This document shows positions 20,589 to 28,428 of a DNA stretch of 35,893 bases, in pieces. The stretch is from Catenulispora sp. (GTDB lineage: Bacteria > Actinomycetota > Actinomycetes > Streptomycetales > Catenulisporaceae). Position numbers and translations under genes: made by a program. Below the pieces are notes generated by a model. That model did not search any database, had not been told where the DNA came from, and saw only the letters and a list, made by a program, of their open reading frames with translations. Where the stretch lies: assembly GCA_013361685.1 (NCBI GenBank), contig JABFXP010000509.1, forward strand, positions 1 through 35,893, in the 5' to 3' direction. Position 1 is the first letter of the stretch, and the number at the start of each line of letters is the position of its first letter.

Positions 20589-20621
20589 GTGGCCCCGGCG
20601 GAGAGAATCCGCCGGGGCCAC
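20589..20621. terminator. Strong bidirectional hairpin between convergent genes
   Basis: GTGGCCCCGGCGGA (20589-20602), loop GAGAA, TCCGCCGGGGCCAC (20608-20621): a perfect 14-bp stem. It lies 43 bases after the GH63 stop and 43 bases beyond the stop of the convergent large gene, so it can end transcripts from both sides. No T-tract follows, as is common in high-GC actinomycetes. Confidence 0.85.
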
Positions 20622-20664: not shown

Positions 20665-23600
20665 CTACCGCGCCAGCAACGCCCGCACCTGTTCGGCCGT
20701 CAACGGCTGCACATACGTCCGCACGTCCCGTACCCGCCCGCCGAGCAGCCGCCCGGTGACGGCCCCGCCCCGCCGGCCGAAGCCGATCGTGAACGCCCCG
20801 GAGGAGCTGATCGCGCTGCTGTTCCGGAACGTCGCCGAGCCGCGGAGCCGGCCGTCCAGGTAGACGTGCATCAGCCCGGCCACGGCGTCGTAGACCCCTG
20901 CGACGTGGTGCCACTCACCGGCCTTGACGGGGATCCCGGAGTCGACACTCGTCTCCGTGCCGTTCGTCAGATAGCGGGTGAAGTGCCACGACTTCGTGGA
21001 CACCGCGTATTGCAGACTGAAGACCGACGACTGCCCGGTGTCCTGCGCCGCCAGGAACGTGTTGCCGCCGGGCAGCCGGTCCAGCGAGATCCAGCCGGCG
21101 ACCGTGAAACTGCCGGAGGGGCCGGTGTTCAGGACCGGGCCGGAGGTGGCGATGCCGCTGACGGAGTTCTCGAAGCCCGCGACCCCGCCGACGCCGGGGA
21201 CGGGCTGCCAGCGGATGACCGTGGCGGTCGCGTTGTGCCGGCGTTCGGCGTCGTGCGCCACGGTCCCGGAGGTCTCGTCCAGGCGCCAGAAGGCCGCCGC
21301 GTCGGGCTCCAAGCGCAGCTCGTCCAGCGCCTGCCGGTAGACGCGCACGTCCCGCACCGCGCCGTTCAGATGACCATCGGCCCGGCCCAGGGCCCGAGCG
21401 ACGCCGATCTGAAAGGGACCGGCGGCGGCGAAGGCGTGGTTCGGCTCCACCTCCAGCGCGCCGAGCATGGTGCCGTCGACGTAGATCCGCATCTCAGTGA
21501 ACTGCTTCCCACCGGCGGTCCGCGCGTCCGGGTCGTAGACGCCGGCCACATGGGTCCAGACCCCCGGGGTCTGCGGCACCTTGGCGACCACCCGGTTCAC
21601 GACCGGGTTCGGGGCGTCGGCGGCGGCCCGCTCGAACACCCAGCCGCCGAGCGTGGCCGAGTAGCCGAGGCTGAACGTCGAGACCTGCGTCCCGGACTGC
21701 GACAGGACCGCCGCGTACTTCTGGGCGTCCGGCAGGCGGTTCAGGCGGACCCAGGCCGAGACGGTGAACGGCTTGCGCGCCGCGGTGTCGAGCACCGGGC
21801 CGGAGGTGGAGATCGCGCCGTCACCGACGAAGTTCGCGAACCCGCCGATCCCTTCGGTGGCGGAGAACGTGACGTTCTGCGCGGTCGCCGGGAACAAGCC
21901 GCGCCGGTCCGGCACCTTCCCCGCGACCAGCCCGCTCAAGGGCCAGGCCGCCGCCGGAGTGACCAGCGTGCTCGCCAGCAGCATCCCGTAGGCGTAGCCG
22001 TGCAGCCCGGCGTAGAAGCGGCCGCCGCCGTCGGTCGCCAGCTCGGTGTCGAAGTTCAGCCCGGTCGACAGCAGCGAGGTCAGCAGCCACTGCTGTTGCA
22101 GGGTGCCGTCGAGCAGGTTGACCTCGTAGACGTACCCGTCGCAGCCCGCGAACAGGCGGTCCTGGATGTACAGCATCGCGGCCGGAGCATGCTCCCGCAG
22201 AACGCTGAGTCGCTCGGTGCGCCACAGCGGGTCCTTGCCCCACGGCACATCCAGCGGCAGCGCGTACCCGACGCCGTGGCTGCCGATATAGAGCCGGCCG
22301 CCGTCGCCGGCCAGGTGCGCCGGCTGATCCGCGGCGCCGGCGTCGTGGAACCGGAGGCTCTGCAGCACGTCGCCGTTGGACCGCCGGATCTCGTAGGCCC
22401 AGCCGTTGGTGGCGGCGAACAGCCGGTCGCCCTTCAGCAGGATCCGCACGGTCTGGTCGACGCCCGGGTTGCCCAGGTGCTGTTTGGTGGACCAGACCCA
22501 CTTGTCGTCCCACTTGCCGTGCAGCCGCACCGCGTAGGCGGCGCCGTGCGTCCCGGCGTAGATCAGTTCGCCGTCGGTGGCCAGGTCCACCGGGAACAGC
22601 CCGGCCTGCCACCACTTGCCGAACGCGATGCGCTGGAGCACCTTGCCGTTGCTCTTGTCGATCTCGCTCAGATAGCCGTGGCAGGCGGCGAACAGGCGGT
22701 TGCCGGCGAGCAGCACGGCCACCGGCAGCAGGCTGTCCCGGACGCCGAGGGCGTCGGTGCTCCACGTCGGCCCGCCGCCCCAGGCCCCGTTGCGCGGGGC
22801 CGCGTGCACGTGACCGTTGATGCCGACGTAGACCTGGTTGTCGTCCATGGCCAGGGAGTTGGTCTTGCTGCCGAGGGTGGTGTCCGGCAGCGTCATGGTC
22901 TTGTTCTTGCGGATGGCGCCGGTGCGCGCGTCGGCCTCGTAGAGGTAGCCGTCGGAGGCCAGGAACAGGCTGTCCCCGTCCGGCAGCAGCGCGACCTGGT
23001 CGAAGGCCAGCTTGTCCCCGAGGCCGGTGTACCACTGCTCGCCGATCGGCTCGTCGCGCGACACCACACCCAGGCGCGGGGAGCTCAGCTGCAACAACAG
23101 GTCCTTGAGTTTGTCGGCGAAGGGCGTGAAGACGTTCTCCTCCACCCAGGCCTTCTGGCCGGTGGCCCAGGTCCGCAGGTCGGTGATCTGGTTCTGGCTG
23201 GACCCGGCCCGGGTCGGGAACCGGCTGCGGATCTTGGCCTGGTCGATGGACGTCCCGCCGAATTTCATGATCTCGTCGAGCGCGGTCCGGGACATCTGGG
23301 CCGTCTCGGCGGTGGTGAACACGCCGGGGCCGCCGCCGGCGCCGGACAGCAGCGTGTCGTCGCCCCAGATCCGGTAGGCGGTCGGCTGCGCGGCCGAGGC
23401 CACCCACAGCGAGTTCCCGTTGTAGTGGTCGTGCAGTTCGGCGGCCGCGAGTTGGGAGGCGGCGCTGGTGAGGAACGTCAGGTAGTCGAGGTAGCCGGTG
23501 AGCTGGTCGCGCTCGCGGCCCGGGCCGTTGCCGCCGCCGGTGGCGCGGATGGCCAGGCTGCGCAGCTCCTGCACGGTCTGCGGGTCGTGCGACGGCCCGG

Positions 23601-24864
23601 CGTAAGCGGGGTCGTAGAGCCGGGCCCCGGCTTGCAGTCCCGGCTGGAGCGCGGCGGTCATGTAGCGGAGGACGTCGTGGTCGGGCAGCAGGTCGCTGTC
23701 CCCGGCCCACTCCACGAACCACTGCATCACCAGGGTCTTGTCGATGAGGTGGCCGGCGGCGAAGGAGTCCTCGAGGAAGTGGTCGGCGTATCCGCCGTAG
23801 TTGCGCGCCTGGCGCAGATCCTCAGGGTTCTTAGTCTTGAAGTAGCTCTCCGCGAACTGCCGGGCCACCGTGTTCGCGGTGCTCCAGCGGTGCCAGGAGT
23901 ACGGCGCGAAATGGCAGGCGTTGCGGGCCAGCAGGCCGCGGTAGTGGTCCTGCCCGGCCGGGCCCAACCCGGCGGTGAGCTGGTCCAGGGCGGTGGTCTC
24001 GACGATCGCGTCGACCAGGCCCCAGCCGGTCGGCCCGAACGGCGCCAGGGCGAAGCGCTCCGCCGGGTCGCGGCCGGTGAGCAGCTTGGTGAAGGCGTTG
24101 AAGCCCTCCTGCCGGATCACCTGCAGGATCGGCATGAGGATGTCCGCGCCCATGCTGTCGACCTGCTCGGGGTTGGCCAGGTAGTCCGGCAGGGCGTTGA
24201 CGTCGCCGTAGGTGGCCAGCACCTTGTCCGGGCCGAGGCGGACGGTGACGAGGTCCTTGTCGACCGAGTGGACCTTGGCCTCGTCGACCGAGAACGGGTC
24301 GGTGCGCCACAGCGCCATCAGCTGGATCTGCCGTTGCAGGATGGTCTGCCAGCCGGGGCCCTTGGTCGAGACCTCGCGCAGGTCCACCGGCTTGCCGTCG
24401 CCGAGCCAGCGGTGCTCGAAGGAAGCGTGGAGCTGGACGGCGCCGGTGCGGGACGGACCGGCCGGAACGGTCACGTGGCCCGCCGCGTCGCGGGGCGCTC
24501 CGGCCAGGAAGGCGTCGGCGAACCGGTCGGCGTCGGCCTCGGCGTCCTCGGAGCCGCCCGGCGCGCCACCGGCCTGCTGCACCGTGTGCGCGACCTCATG
24601 CGCCAGCAGGTGCCGGCCGGCGGCGGTGTCCGGCCGGTAGGCGCCGTTCCGGAAGAAGATCCCGGAGCCGGAGGCGATCGCGTCGGCTCCGTAGGCCCGG
24701 GCCACGGCGTCGGCCGCCGAGCCGGTGTGGATCCGCACCGCGGCGAGCTTCGCGCCGAGCACGCGCTCCAGGTCGTCGCGCAGCTCGGCGGGCAGCGGCC
24801 CGCCCTCCCGTGGTGTCTCCCAAGCTCGCGCCAACCGGGATCGTGCCGAGTCCGTGGTTCCCAT
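20665..24864 (-). CDS. eCIS_core (DUF4157) multidomain protein: phospholipase C/S1-P1-like, eight-blade propeller, two LamG-like domains
   Basis: 1399 residues, no signal peptide or membrane span. Residues ~21-100 are an eCIS_core/DUF4157 domain (LPAELRDDLERVLGAKLAAVRIH...LLAHEVAHTVQQ) with the metalloprotease-like HExxH at H89-E90-H93. Residues ~140-500 have spaced metal-ligand motifs like zinc phospholipase C/S1-P1 proteins: H146, ACHFAPYSWHRW (H318, H325), YADHFLEDSFAAGHL (D361, H362, D366, H372) and LHDHYN (H478, D479, H480). Residues ~615-965 hold eight repeats of ~45 residues (LYAGxHGxAY type), a PQQ-like propeller. Residues ~990-1185 and ~1190-1399 are two related LamG/concanavalin-like domains (WxHVAGVYD, xxxVYLDG). 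DUF4157 marks cargo of extracellular contractile injection systems in established surveys. No injection-system gene is nearby. ATG 24864 has AGAGGGGG upstream. Domain functions are inferred. Confidence 0.85.
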   Translation of the reverse strand: MGTTDSARSRLARAWETPREGGPLPAELRDDLERVLGAKLAAVRIHTGSAADAVARAYGADAIASGSGIFFRNGAYRPDTAAGRHLLAHEVAHTVQQAGGAPGGSEDAEADADRFADAFLAGAPRDAAGHVTVPAGPSRTGAVQLHASFEHRWLGDGKPVDLREVSTKGPGWQTILQRQIQLMALWRTDPFSVDEAKVHSVDKDLVTVRLGPDKVLATYGDVNALPDYLANPEQVDSMGADILMPILQVIRQEGFNAFTKLLTGRDPAERFALAPFGPTGWGLVDAIVETTALDQLTAGLGPAGQDHYRGLLARNACHFAPYSWHRWSTANTVARQFAESYFKTKNPEDLRQARNYGGYADHFLEDSFAAGHLIDKTLVMQWFVEWAGDSDLLPDHDVLRYMTAALQPGLQAGARLYDPAYAGPSHDPQTVQELRSLAIRATGGGNGPGRERDQLTGYLDYLTFLTSAASQLAAAELHDHYNGNSLWVASAAQPTAYRIWGDDTLLSGAGGGPGVFTTAETAQMSRTALDEIMKFGGTSIDQAKIRSRFPTRAGSSQNQITDLRTWATGQKAWVEENVFTPFADKLKDLLLQLSSPRLGVVSRDEPIGEQWYTGLGDKLAFDQVALLPDGDSLFLASDGYLYEADARTGAIRKNKTMTLPDTTLGSKTNSLAMDDNQVYVGINGHVHAAPRNGAWGGGPTWSTDALGVRDSLLPVAVLLAGNRLFAACHGYLSEIDKSNGKVLQRIAFGKWWQAGLFPVDLATDGELIYAGTHGAAYAVRLHGKWDDKWVWSTKQHLGNPGVDQTVRILLKGDRLFAATNGWAYEIRRSNGDVLQSLRFHDAGAADQPAHLAGDGGRLYIGSHGVGYALPLDVPWGKDPLWRTERLSVLREHAPAAMLYIQDRLFAGCDGYVYEVNLLDGTLQQQWLLTSLLSTGLNFDTELATDGGGRFYAGLHGYAYGMLLASTLVTPAAAWPLSGLVAGKVPDRRGLFPATAQNVTFSATEGIGGFANFVGDGAISTSGPVLDTAARKPFTVSAWVRLNRLPDAQKYAAVLSQSGTQVSTFSLGYSATLGGWVFERAAADAPNPVVNRVVAKVPQTPGVWTHVAGVYDPDARTAGGKQFTEMRIYVDGTMLGALEVEPNHAFAAAGPFQIGVARALGRADGHLNGAVRDVRVYRQALDELRLEPDAAAFWRLDETSGTVAHDAERRHNATATVIRWQPVPGVGGVAGFENSVSGIATSGPVLNTGPSGSFTVAGWISLDRLPGGNTFLAAQDTGQSSVFSLQYAVSTKSWHFTRYLTNGTETSVDSGIPVKAGEWHHVAGVYDAVAGLMHVYLDGRLRGSATFRNSSAISSSGAFTIGFGRRGGAVTGRLLGGRVRDVRTYVQPLTAEQVRALLAR

Positions 24865-25022: not shown

Positions 25023-25421
25023 GTGGCCGTCGTGGAACTGACCAAGGACACCTTCACCGAGACCGTGTCGGGCGAGGGCATCACGCTCATCGACTTCTGG
25101 GCCGACTGGTGCCCGCCGTGTAAGGCGTTCGCGCCTGTCTACGACAAGGCCGCGGCCAAGCACGGTGACATCACCTTCGGCAAGGTCGACACCGAGGCCG
25201 AGCAGGAGCTGGCGATGGCGTTCGAGATCCGCTCGATCCCGACGCTGATGATCGTGCGCGACGGCGTGACGCTGTACTCGCACCCCGGCGCCCTGCGGGA
25301 GGCCGCGCTCGAGGACCTGATCGCACAGGCCCGGGCGCTGGACATGGACCAGGTGCGCAAGGCGATGGCCGAGCAGGACGGCGCGCAGGACGCCGCCGGC
25401 GCCGAGAGCGCCGCGCGCTGA
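25023..25421 (+). CDS. Thioredoxin with WCPPC active site
   Basis: 132 residues. The active site is FWADWCPPCKAFAP with C30 and C33; the cis-Pro loop is IRSIPTLMI. The usual thioredoxin motif is WCGPC; the Gly-to-Pro change is seen in some actinobacterial thioredoxins and would be expected to alter redox potential. The C terminus extends about 25 residues beyond the fold (MAEQDGAQDAAGAESAAR), probably disordered. GTG 25023 follows AAGGAGG by a few bases. It is cytosolic. The stop TGA shares its A with the start of the methyltransferase gene, so the two are coupled. Control through the CsoR-like palindrome upstream would tie it to copper or sulfane-sulfur stress (inference). Confidence 0.92.
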   Translation: MAVVELTKDTFTETVSGEGITLIDFWADWCPPCKAFAPVYDKAAAKHGDITFGKVDTEAEQELAMAFEIRSIPTLMIVRDGVTLYSHPGALREAALEDLIAQARALDMDQVRKAMAEQDGAQDAAGAESAAR

Positions 25422-26071
25422 TGGCGGGGGCCGAGGACCGGGCGCTGTGGGAGCGGCGGTACGGCGACGCCCGGTCGGTATGGGGCTGGGCGCCGAACCG
25501 CTTCGTGGCGGAGGTCCTCGGCCCGCTGCGGCCGGGCCGCGCGCTGGATCTGGCGTGCGGCGAGGGCCGCAACGCGCTGTGGCTCGCGGGCCTGGGATGG
25601 CGTGCCACAGCCGTGGACTTCGCGGAGAACGCGCTCGTCCGCGGCCGGGAGCAGGCCGCGGACCACGACGTGGCCGTGGACTTCGTGGCCGCCGACGTGC
25701 TGGAGTACCAGCCGCAGGCCGGTGCGTACGACGCGGTGGTCATCGCGTACCTGCACCTGCCCGCCGACCAGCTCGGCACGGTGCTGCGGCACGCGGTGCC
25801 GGCGCTGGCGCCGGGCGGGACGCTGGTCGTGGTGGGACACGATGTCACGAACATCGCCGAGGGCGTCGGCGGCCCGCAGGATCCTGACATCCTCTACACG
25901 CCGGAGCTCGTCACGAGCCACCTCGGCGGCCTGCACGTGACGCGCGCCGAGCGGGTCCACCGCCAGACCGACCGTGCTCCGCAGCCGGCGATCGACACGC
26001 TGGTCGTGGCTCAGGCCGCGGGCTCGGCGGTGTCCTCGGCCGGTCCGGGGACGTCGGCAAGCGAGAGGTAG
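25421..26071 (+). CDS. Class I SAM-dependent methyltransferase (TehB-like)
   Basis: 216 residues. It opens WERRYGDARSVWGWAPNRFVAEVLGPL and has motif I ALDLACGEGRNALWLA, motif II VDFAENAL, then YDAVVIAYLHLP and LAPGGTLVVVGHD. This pattern is that of small TehB/thiopurine-type methyltransferases that act on tellurite, selenite or small thiols; the substrate is not readable. ATG 25421 overlaps the thioredoxin stop, so the pair likely works together on thiol or metalloid stress. The last 61 bases overlap the convergent metal ATPase gene; the C-terminal ~20 residues (SAVSSAGPGTSASER) look like overlap-encoded tail rather than fold. Confidence 0.85.
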   Translation: MAGAEDRALWERRYGDARSVWGWAPNRFVAEVLGPLRPGRALDLACGEGRNALWLAGLGWRATAVDFAENALVRGREQAADHDVAVDFVAADVLEYQPQAGAYDAVVIAYLHLPADQLGTVLRHAVPALAPGGTLVVVGHDVTNIAEGVGGPQDPDILYTPELVTSHLGGLHVTRAERVHRQTDRAPQPAIDTLVVAQAAGSAVSSAGPGTSASER

Positions 26072-28428
26072 CTCTCCTCCTCCTGGAGGGTGTGCAGCCG
26101 CAGGACCGCGTAGAGGCCGTAGAGGACCAGGCGCAGTTCGGCGATGTCGGCGGCGCCGAGGTCGCGGCGGCGGACCAGGTTTCCCAGGGCCCTGATCTGG
26201 CTCTGGATCTCGACGTGGGCGCGGCTCATGGTGGCCATGGGGTCGACGCCGCCGAGGGCCTCGGCCATCGCCGGATACAGGAGTTCTTCTTCGGCTTCCT
26301 CGTGCGGGAGCACGTCCTCGACGAGGTCGCGGTGGAGCTGCCGGACGCGCCCGAGGGCGGCGTCGGTGGGCTGGTCGGCGAGGTCGTCGGCGACGGCGCG
26401 CATCCGGTCCAGGACCGCCCACACCGCGGTGTGCTCGGCGGCGAAGCGGCGGGCCAGTTCCTGGGTGCGGTCGTCCAGGCGGACCGCGTCCTCGTCGGGA
26501 CGCAGGACGCGCAGCGCGTTGAGGATGGCGGCCAGGTCGATGCCCTCCTGGAGCAGCGCGCCCCAGGCGGCGGGCAGGTGGCCGAGGGCGGCGACGAGCA
26601 TCGCGACGCCGGAGGCGGCCATTCCGCCGCCGGCGCTTTGCAGGGCGATGCGTTTGGTGCGGCGGGCCACGGTCATCGCCTCGGCCAGGCGTTCCAGGCG
26701 GTCCACGGTGAGCACCACGTCGGCGGCCTCGGAGGAGGCGGTGGTGCCGCCGGCGCCGACGGCCACGCCGACGTCGGCCAGGGCCAGCGCCGGGGCGTCG
26801 TTCACGCCGTCGCCGACCATGCCGGTGACGGCGCCGGCCCGCTCGGCCCGCACCAGGTCGGCTTTGAACTCCGGGCCGCACTCGGCGAAGACCTCGTCCA
26901 CGCCGGTGACCGACCCGACGGCCTCGGCGACCGGCCGCCGGTCCCCGGTGGCCATGACCACGCGCCGGACGCCGCCGCGGCGCAGGGCCCGGATGGTGCG
27001 GGCGCTGTCCGGGCGCACCGGGTCGTCGAACAGCAGCACCCCGACCGCGCGGCCGTCCACGCCGATGAAGACGGTGAGCGCGCCGTCGGCGTCGGAGCGG
27101 CGGCGGGCGGTTTCGGCCCAGGCCGCGGCGCCGGGGTCGCCCGGGTCGCCGGCGAACGCGGCCTTGCCGATGTGGACCTCGCGACCTTCGACGTACCCCC
27201 GCATGCCCTGGCCGGTGATCTCCTCGGCGTCCCGAGGCGCGGACAGCCGCAGACCGCGTTCGTGGGCGGCGCGCACCACGGCGGCGGCCAGGACGTGCGC
27301 GGAGACCTGGTCCAGCGAGGCGGCCAGGCGCAGCACCTCCTCGGCCGAGACGTCCTCGGCGGTGACCACGCCGCCGAGCGTGGGACGGCCGGCGGTGAGG
27401 GTGCCGGTCTTGTCGACGATCAGGGTCCGGACGTCCGCCAGCCGCTCCAGCACCCCGCCGCCCTTGACCACGACGCCCCGGCGCGCGGTGAGCGACAGCC
27501 CGGCGACCATCGCGACCGGCACGGCGAGGATCAGCGGGCACGGCGTGGCCACCACCAGCACCGCGACCGCGCGCCGCGCCTCCCCGGACAGCCACCACGC
27601 CAGACCGCACACGATCAGCGTCAGCGGCAGGAACCAGGCGGCGATCCGGTCGGCGGCCCGGACGGCGGGCGCCTTCGCCTGCTCGGCCTCGCGCACCAGC
27701 CGCAGGATGCCGGCGTAGGTGCCGTCGGCGGCGGTGGAGGTGGCCCGCAGGTCGAAGGGGGCGCCGGCGTTGAGCACACCGCTGCGCAGCCGGTCGCCGC
27801 TCCAGTACTCGACCGGCAGCGGCTCGCCGGTGAGCGCCGACTCGTCGAGGGTGGCCGCGCCGCCGGCCAGCGTGCCGTCGACCGGGACGACCTCGCCGGC
27901 GCCGACGATGACGATGTCGCCGGGCCGGACGGCTTCGGCGGGGACGGTTTCGACGGTGGTGGGCTCGGCGGATTCGGAGGGCACAGTGAGCTCGGAGGAT
28001 CCAGTGAGCTCGGTGGATTCGGCGGATCCGACCGCACCGCCGACCCGCCGCCGCACCGTCCGCGGCGCCCGCGCGAGCAGCGCCCGCAGGTCACGGCGGG
28101 CCCGGCCGGCGGCGGCGGCCTCCAGCGCCCGGCCCCCGGCCAGCATCACCGTGATCAGCGCGCCGGCCAGTTCCTCGTGGACCAGCAGCGTGCCGACCAG
28201 CGCGAGCAGGGCGATGACGTCGGCGTCGAGGCGGCGTTCGCGCAGGGCGGCCAGGACCCAGGTCAGGGAGCACAGCACGCCGAGGACCGCGACCCCGCCC
28301 CAGACCACGTGCGCGGCGCCGTGTGCCCCCGCACACCAGGCGACGCCGCCGGCCGCCAGGCCGCCGACGGCGGCGGCCAGGATGAGCTGGTCGGCGTGGT
28401 CCCGGAGCCGGGATCGCGTGTCCTCCAC
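26011..28428 (-). CDS. P1B-5-type heavy-metal ATPase with C-terminal hemerythrin domain
   Basis: 805 residues. P-type ATPase core: A-domain TGEP (200-203), membrane ATPCPLIL with C296-P-C298 type site, phosphorylation D339 in DKTGTLT, MATGD, MVGDGVNDAPAL (537-548). The last span region LLQEGIDLAAILNALR (626-640) with TPCP fits the P1B-5 group, linked to nickel/iron export, whose members often carry a C-terminal hemerythrin-like domain; here it spans ~655-790 with H666, H699, H709, E713, H738, H779 and E783 as di-iron ligand candidates. The nucleotide-domain HP motif of heavy-metal ATPases reads SAHV (376-379), so the Pro is missing. No N-terminal metal-binding domain. Residues ~135-165 are a Ser/Thr/Glu-rich insertion from an 18-base DNA repeat. 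Start is GTG 28428. Confidence 0.9.
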   Translation of the reverse strand: MEDTRSRLRDHADQLILAAAVGGLAAGGVAWCAGAHGAAHVVWGGVAVLGVLCSLTWVLAALRERRLDADVIALLALVGTLLVHEELAGALITVMLAGGRALEAAAAGRARRDLRALLARAPRTVRRRVGGAVGSAESTELTGSSELTVPSESAEPTTVETVPAEAVRPGDIVIVGAGEVVPVDGTLAGGAATLDESALTGEPLPVEYWSGDRLRSGVLNAGAPFDLRATSTAADGTYAGILRLVREAEQAKAPAVRAADRIAAWFLPLTLIVCGLAWWLSGEARRAVAVLVVATPCPLILAVPVAMVAGLSLTARRGVVVKGGGVLERLADVRTLIVDKTGTLTAGRPTLGGVVTAEDVSAEEVLRLAASLDQVSAHVLAAAVVRAAHERGLRLSAPRDAEEITGQGMRGYVEGREVHIGKAAFAGDPGDPGAAAWAETARRRSDADGALTVFIGVDGRAVGVLLFDDPVRPDSARTIRALRRGGVRRVVMATGDRRPVAEAVGSVTGVDEVFAECGPEFKADLVRAERAGAVTGMVGDGVNDAPALALADVGVAVGAGGTTASSEAADVVLTVDRLERLAEAMTVARRTKRIALQSAGGGMAASGVAMLVAALGHLPAAWGALLQEGIDLAAILNALRVLRPDEDAVRLDDRTQELARRFAAEHTAVWAVLDRMRAVADDLADQPTDAALGRVRQLHRDLVEDVLPHEEAEEELLYPAMAEALGGVDPMATMSRAHVEIQSQIRALGNLVRRRDLGAADIAELRLVLYGLYAVLRLHTLQEEESYLSLADVPGPAEDTAEPAA
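27984..28019 (-). repeat. Two tandem 18-base units inside the metal ATPase gene
   Basis: CAGTGAGCTCGGAGGATC (27984-28001) is followed directly by CAGTGAGCTCGGTGGATT (28002-28019); related degraded units flank both sides. The repeat is in phase and encodes the six-residue pattern S-x-E-L-T-x in the A-domain insertion. It looks like a slippage expansion. Confidence 0.75.

Follow-up and report, generated by a model that had tools for sequence, protein, structure and literature searches.

Proteins with a DUF4157 domain (eCIS_core in Pfam) are treated as near-certain cargo of contractile injection systems (CISs), and the domain is probably enough for a positive prediction of an extracellular CIS (eCIS; PMC11297309); it has been predicted to be a self-processing peptidase (Zhang et al. 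2012, PMC3482391). The 2012 paper also predicted Het-C to be a toxin domain of PVC-type toxins related to phospholipase C (PLC) and S1-P1 nucleases, which share a superfold, and a notable share of PVC toxins have no adjoining immunity gene. Here we describe a gene at positions 20665 to 24864 (minus strand) of a 35,893-nucleotide stretch of Catenulispora sp. DNA (contig JABFXP010000509.1, positions 1 to 35,893), hereafter the window, whose 1399-residue product joins a DUF4157 domain, a PLC-like helical core, a propeller and two LamG-like domains. The coupling of DUF4157 to a PLC/S1-P1-related toxin domain is an older idea, predicted in 2012 for Het-C (PMC3482391); new here are a separate PLC-like family, its lectin tails and its CIS-free distribution. 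In the available parts of the open-licence papers considered, neither this architecture nor the retention of a DUF4157 family by genomes free of CIS is described.

Like the Het-C toxins (PMC3482391), the window protein has an N-terminal HExxHxxQ metallopeptidase-like domain and an all-helical domain of predicted relationship to PLC and S1-P1 nucleases. It differs from them in lacking a Het-C match, in its propeller and LamG tail and in a genome without a CIS marker, and the Het-C spacing was H-x3-D-x3-H in all four proteins fetched (HxxxDxxxH in PMC3482391), compared with H-x3-D-x5-H in the window family. Het-C matched in 4 of 39 genomes (G427, G441, G443, G445) and in none of the near relatives' genomes searched. 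The eCIS-associated toxins (EATs; Geller 2021 PMC8213781, Danov 2024 PMC11297309) also carry DUF4157 near the N terminus with an enzyme domain behind it; unlike them, the window gene lies away from an eCIS operon, again in a genome without a CIS marker. The DUF4157-PLA2-LysM candidate ML_1, non-toxic to yeast in the EAT study (PMC8213781, PMC11297309), has a phospholipase A2 where the window protein has a PLC-like core, and VgrG2b of Pseudomonas aeruginosa has its effector domain on the type VI secretion system spike, whereas the part in question here is N-terminal in a long protein.

The chief interest of the protein is not its PLC core, but that the sole DUF4157 family of several CIS-free actinomycetes is this one. 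The window genome holds one eCIS_core protein, and searches for sheath, tube and Pvc16_N, which took in the window, came up empty there; the 20 window open reading frames (ORFs) scanned with Pfam, a part of all those present, contained no sheath, tube or baseplate family. The gene is therefore not close to a CIS operon within these searches, as a preliminary description made from the letters of the window had remarked. We searched for sheath and tube in 45 genomes, the window's and 44 of relatives (L031 shares a genome with L017; L032, L048 and L058-L089 are outside this set). In nine genomes we also looked for eCIS_core. Seven of these nine, the window's and six named ones, had no sheath, tube or Pvc16_N match, and there eCIS_core occurred only in this family, with eight matches whose places were compared by hand with the family gene positions. 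Two CIS-bearing controls among the nine genomes searched in this way gave six and three eCIS_core matches. The family copies in the six other named genomes are complete ORFs. The closest relative of the window protein is from Actinospica, and the genome of that strain likewise has no CIS marker, so the preliminary view of the window copy as CIS cargo is not supported in the form given.

In the order as a whole, DUF4157 does mark CIS-bearing genomes, as that description had assumed. Among 391 genomes sampled, 260 had a sheath match and 252 an eCIS_core match, 246 having both, 14 sheath alone and 125 neither; because PF04984 matches phage tails too, the sheath figure sets a ceiling on the number of CIS-bearing genomes. 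Only six of the 252 lacked a sheath match (G000, G021, G050, G159, G294, G354), and two of these are the window genome (G000) and one taken to be that of its nearest relative (G021). Such genomes accounted for two of the five with a family member and 4 of the 247 others, when the window genome was included and the weak matches G135 and G279 were counted among the 247 (p = 0.005). G050, G159, G294 and G354 are thus four further genomes of the order with eCIS_core and no sheath match.

The gene is a complete ORF with exact limits and an ATG start, immediately preceded by a purine-rich stretch that resembles a Shine-Dalgarno sequence by eye. The eCIS_core (PVC-metallopeptidase) domain, encoded at 24565..24798 on the minus strand, matched PF13699 at residues 23-100 (E 3.2e-26; 91.7 bits against a curated cut-off of 22) and contains HEVAH in the signature HEVAHTVQ, beginning at residue 89, in agreement with the earlier assignment. 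The helical core (residues 139-605; 23050..24450, minus strand) has the motifs NACHF at 315, HFLEDSFAAGH at 362 and HDHYN at 478. D227, H318, H362, D366, H372, H478 and D502 are invariant in all 43 rows of an alignment (A3) of the window protein and 42 relatives, and E150 and H151 are kept in the 42 rows with a letter, one row having a gap. Judged by this invariance, the motifs are evidently not a product of chance.

Zinc PLCs and P1 nuclease have their ligands in the same order and with the same H-x3-D-x5-H spacing, and this spacing recurred in all of the strong S1-P1 proteins that were fetched (8 of 8). The His/Asp set is colinear with the zinc PLC ligands, a comparison of order and not of residue-by-residue correspondence. 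The core was modelled with pLDDT 88.6 and pTM 0.90, and the first 12 rows of structural neighbours of the isolated domain were zinc PLCs (Bacillus cereus PC-PLC and clostridial PLC structures), the alignment starting at PLC residue 1-2 and covering about 150 of 467 core residues, with long stretches unmatched. This is suggestive of a PLC-like predicted fold and agrees with the His/Asp motifs and helical core read earlier from the letters. Foldseek with a 625-residue N-terminal model found nothing significant, and S1/P1 nucleases were missing from the structural-neighbour lists, though unlisted families may still be related. Profile methods did not place the domain: at residues 139-605 no Pfam or NCBIfam family exceeded its cut-off (one sub-threshold DUF2914 match, E 0.097), which leaves the effector core beyond the coverage of both in these scans. 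Het-C (PF07217) and S1-P1 (PF02265) had no Pfam match in the window protein or in 48 family proteins, none of the 48 matched PF00882 (zinc PLC) at E 0.01, hhalign of the family against the PF00882 and Het-C sets gave nothing, and a PDB profile search with alignment A5 (27 relatives and the window protein) yielded chance matches, the best at E 0.18.

Behind the core, eight propeller motifs spaced 43-47 residues apart (residues 633-956; 21997..22968, minus strand, domain ends approximate) confirm the propeller, which is PQQ/BamB-like by a weak NCBIfam BamB match far under the cut-off. Laminin_G_3 matched in two stretches (Pfam, E 1.4e-46), and LamG-like domains lie at 21340..21792 (minus strand; approximate limits, read by eye) and at 20686..21123 (minus strand; residues 1248-1393, from Pfam). 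The second had a weak TafC match, far under the NCBIfam cut-off, and resembles pentraxins, the sole PDB-sequence matches of the whole protein (phmmer, best E 0.0011). The two lectin-like domains described earlier thus stand for the window protein; in relatives the tail varies. No signal-peptide-like or membrane stretch was found in the 1399 residues, the highest 19-residue hydropathy mean being 1.43.

A pattern search of genome contigs combined with a profile gave 223 pattern hits, of which 93 were confirmed as relatives and 80 kept; this family of 93 confirmed relatives is real. The full-length alignment A2 holds 47 of the 80 (L010-L057 except L048, where no ORF was found), and A3 and the tree hold 42 of these and the window protein (L041, L044, L054, L055 and L056 left out). 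eCIS_core was detected by Pfam in 35 of the 48 family proteins, and several of the remainder either run off the end of their contig or have a late start. The family extends over Actinomycetota, Chloroflexota and Cyanobacteriota and, more distantly, to a Terracidiphilus and several Bacteroidetes. A core-domain search of the 391 genomes of the order gave seven matches including the window's own, five at E 1e-42 or better, and because a relative is present in only one of nine sampled genus mates (G025, 44% over part) while eight of the nine have a sheath match, the gene is sporadic. No relative turned up when plasmids, phages and viral contigs were searched, which leaves a plasmid or phage reading without support.

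In 20 proteins, the window's included, the chain continues past the core as a tail of over 200 residues. The propeller and LamG combination was seen in the window and Actinospica proteins; L011, L012, L014, L015, L017 and L018 have, by eye, a similar propeller with a second repeat module like PLL/tectonin lectins, and others have one module or none. Pfam recognized Tectonin in four and DUF346 in one of the 48. LysM lies between eCIS_core and the core in L063 (Pfam) and in one member of A2, taken as L057 from its sequence. A Bacteroidetes metagenome-assembled genome (MAG) encodes a protein (L058:8753-11173) with Peptidase_C70 (AvrRpt2-like), a phage lysozyme and the DHFL..D core of this family; eCIS_core did not match it, so that other multi-domain proteins employ the core as well.

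Linkage to CIS genes was scanned in six frames at all 80 loci, with flanks of at most 10 kb, or less where the contig stopped sooner. Three distant relatives, all with eCIS_core, have a sheath gene within 6 kb: L045, from Thermoflexales, at 1.5 kb; L063, from Terracidiphilus, at 5.4 kb; and L079 at 5.9 kb. A tube gene lies 8.5 kb from L049, where eCIS_core was not detected; neither sheath nor tube was near the family gene in L010-L044. Although L063 and L079 are distant, BLASTP links L063 to the family (3e-9), and 285 columns of the family profile align with L079 at 99.4%. A quick 43-row tree with one very long branch (L057) puts the window in a 30-row clade (SH-aLRT 87, fork drawn open) that includes all 20 long-tailed proteins, with none among the other 13 rows. 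By genome, 19 rows of the clade have neither sheath nor tube, ten have both and one has tube only; outside it, ten have both and two tube only, of 12 known. The named genomes of the clade, the window's excluded, divide into six with neither marker and ten with them. C-terminal modules and absence of CIS were tested for association, and none was found. Across the 45 genomes, sheath matched in 22 and tube in 25 (24 over the cut-off); the preliminary description had set homologues solely in CIS-free strains against its own reading, and this is not the distribution observed.

Regarding activity, release, target and independence from a CIS, we infer the following. The protein would be a DUF4157-type effector, a zinc-dependent hydrolase of the PLC/S1-P1 superfold on a glycan-binding tail, most likely without an injection system here, a proposal on which we are evenly divided. 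It would be made without a Sec-like signal and may leave the cell via lysis or some other route. From the literature, the DUF4157 domain may be a maturation or docking part, and, from their folds, the propeller and LamG domains would anchor the protein to a surface. The putative metal site would cleave phosphodiester bonds, phospholipid head groups being likelier than nucleic acid in view of the PLCs among which its structural neighbours lie. The branch with the window protein may have descended from, or be related to, CIS cargo, and since the window genome and the six named ones have no CIS marker and no other DUF4157 family, its action here most likely needs no injection system. The features recorded in the preliminary description were confirmed, and its interpretation is partly supported.

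Several results weigh against this proposal. A PLC-type N-terminal Trp ligand is absent from the internal core. Zinc PLC ligands include the mature N-terminal Trp and HxxxE, and the latter is not found either, residue 482, four after the sixth His, being N, C or T in the family alignment; D502 might stand in for the missing ligand, given its conservation. PF00882 did not match the window protein at E up to 1. With the window genome removed, the order sample gives 1 of 4 against 4 of 247 (p = 0.08), and sheath matched in eight of nine sampled genus mates. Absence is weak in many of the 19 marker-free rows because these are MAGs, and the window genome is a draft (980 contigs, 90.35% complete, 3.57% contamination), so the absence there is either particular to this genome or an effect of its draft state. 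The protein could be ordinary CIS cargo, loaded in trans into a particle whose genes fell into an assembly gap. The co-occurrence of eCIS_core and sheath in 246 of 252 genomes, the sheath matches of the genus mates and the closeness of CIS genes to the family members L045, L063 and L079 favor this explanation, but such a gap would need to recur in every genome where sheath, tube and Pvc16_N are all missing and the sole eCIS_core proteins belong to this family, and we consider it rather unlikely.

An MGH1-like glycoside hydrolase gene runs toward the gene from the other side of a GC-rich hairpin at 20590..20620 (no strand assigned), a perfect 13-bp inverted repeat with a 5-nt loop read from the sequence. 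The strong terminator claimed there holds as to the hairpin, but no T tract follows and the terminator-scan list does not contain it. Divergent from the gene is a thioredoxin-like ORF at 25023-25421 (plus strand; WCPPC motif, by eye), followed by a methyltransferase at 25421, and one ORF at 26011-28428 (minus strand) joins a P-type ATPase to a C-terminal hemerythrin domain. Sugar uptake and glycosidase genes are also among the window neighbors. Over 35 near loci and the window, the common neighbors were ABC-transporter ATPases (nine loci) and a response regulator (four loci), both commonplace. Three Streptomyces loci share a flank including a large AAA-TPR regulator partly like one beside the Actinoallomurus gene; AAA-TPR regulators of the helix-turn-helix and/or LuxR type adjoin the family gene in L014, L015, L018 and L017. 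No immunity gene was recognized at these loci, where no search aimed at immunity genes was made.

These surroundings, without a prominent immunity-like gene or specific conserved neighbor at the 35 near loci and with sugar uptake and glycosidase genes nearby, are what might be expected if the protein were not a toxin and served the producing mycelium as an extra- or intracellular scavenging enzyme or adhesin, in phosphate uptake or development; a Streptomyces DUF4157 effector is indeed active in development (PMC11126660). The missing secretion signal, the CIS genes near distant relatives and the relative with lysozyme and C70 protease on one chain make this unlikely. An S1-P1-type metal-dependent nuclease in place of a phospholipase seems less probable still: the superfold is common to both (PMC3482391), DUF4157 toxins are often nucleases (PMC3482391, PMC11297309) and the 8 of 8 S1-P1 proteins share the spacing, but the superfold rows of the structural list were all PLCs, though unlisted families may fit, and S1-P1 profiles did not match, hhalign of the family against S1-P1 being a weak method at this distance, as S1-P1 against PF00882 failed likewise. 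A decaying relic of former cargo, without function, would fit the failure to find CIS markers in the seven genomes but is very improbable: the ORF runs intact through 1399 codons, no row with a letter at the nine invariant positions departs from them, CIS-free rows included, and the copies in the six other genomes are complete as well.

We propose, tentatively and with doubt somewhat outweighing confidence, a DUF4157 effector family cut loose from CIS, the sole DUF4157 family in CIS-free actinomycetes, in which a free-standing metallo-phosphodiesterase would use exchangeable lectin modules for target docking. If this is true, DUF4157 would be more than a CIS loading tag: it would be a module that functions without particles, perhaps in self-processing or as a chaperone. 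The complete family genes in genomes without CIS markers offer a system for studying DUF4157 apart from the particle.

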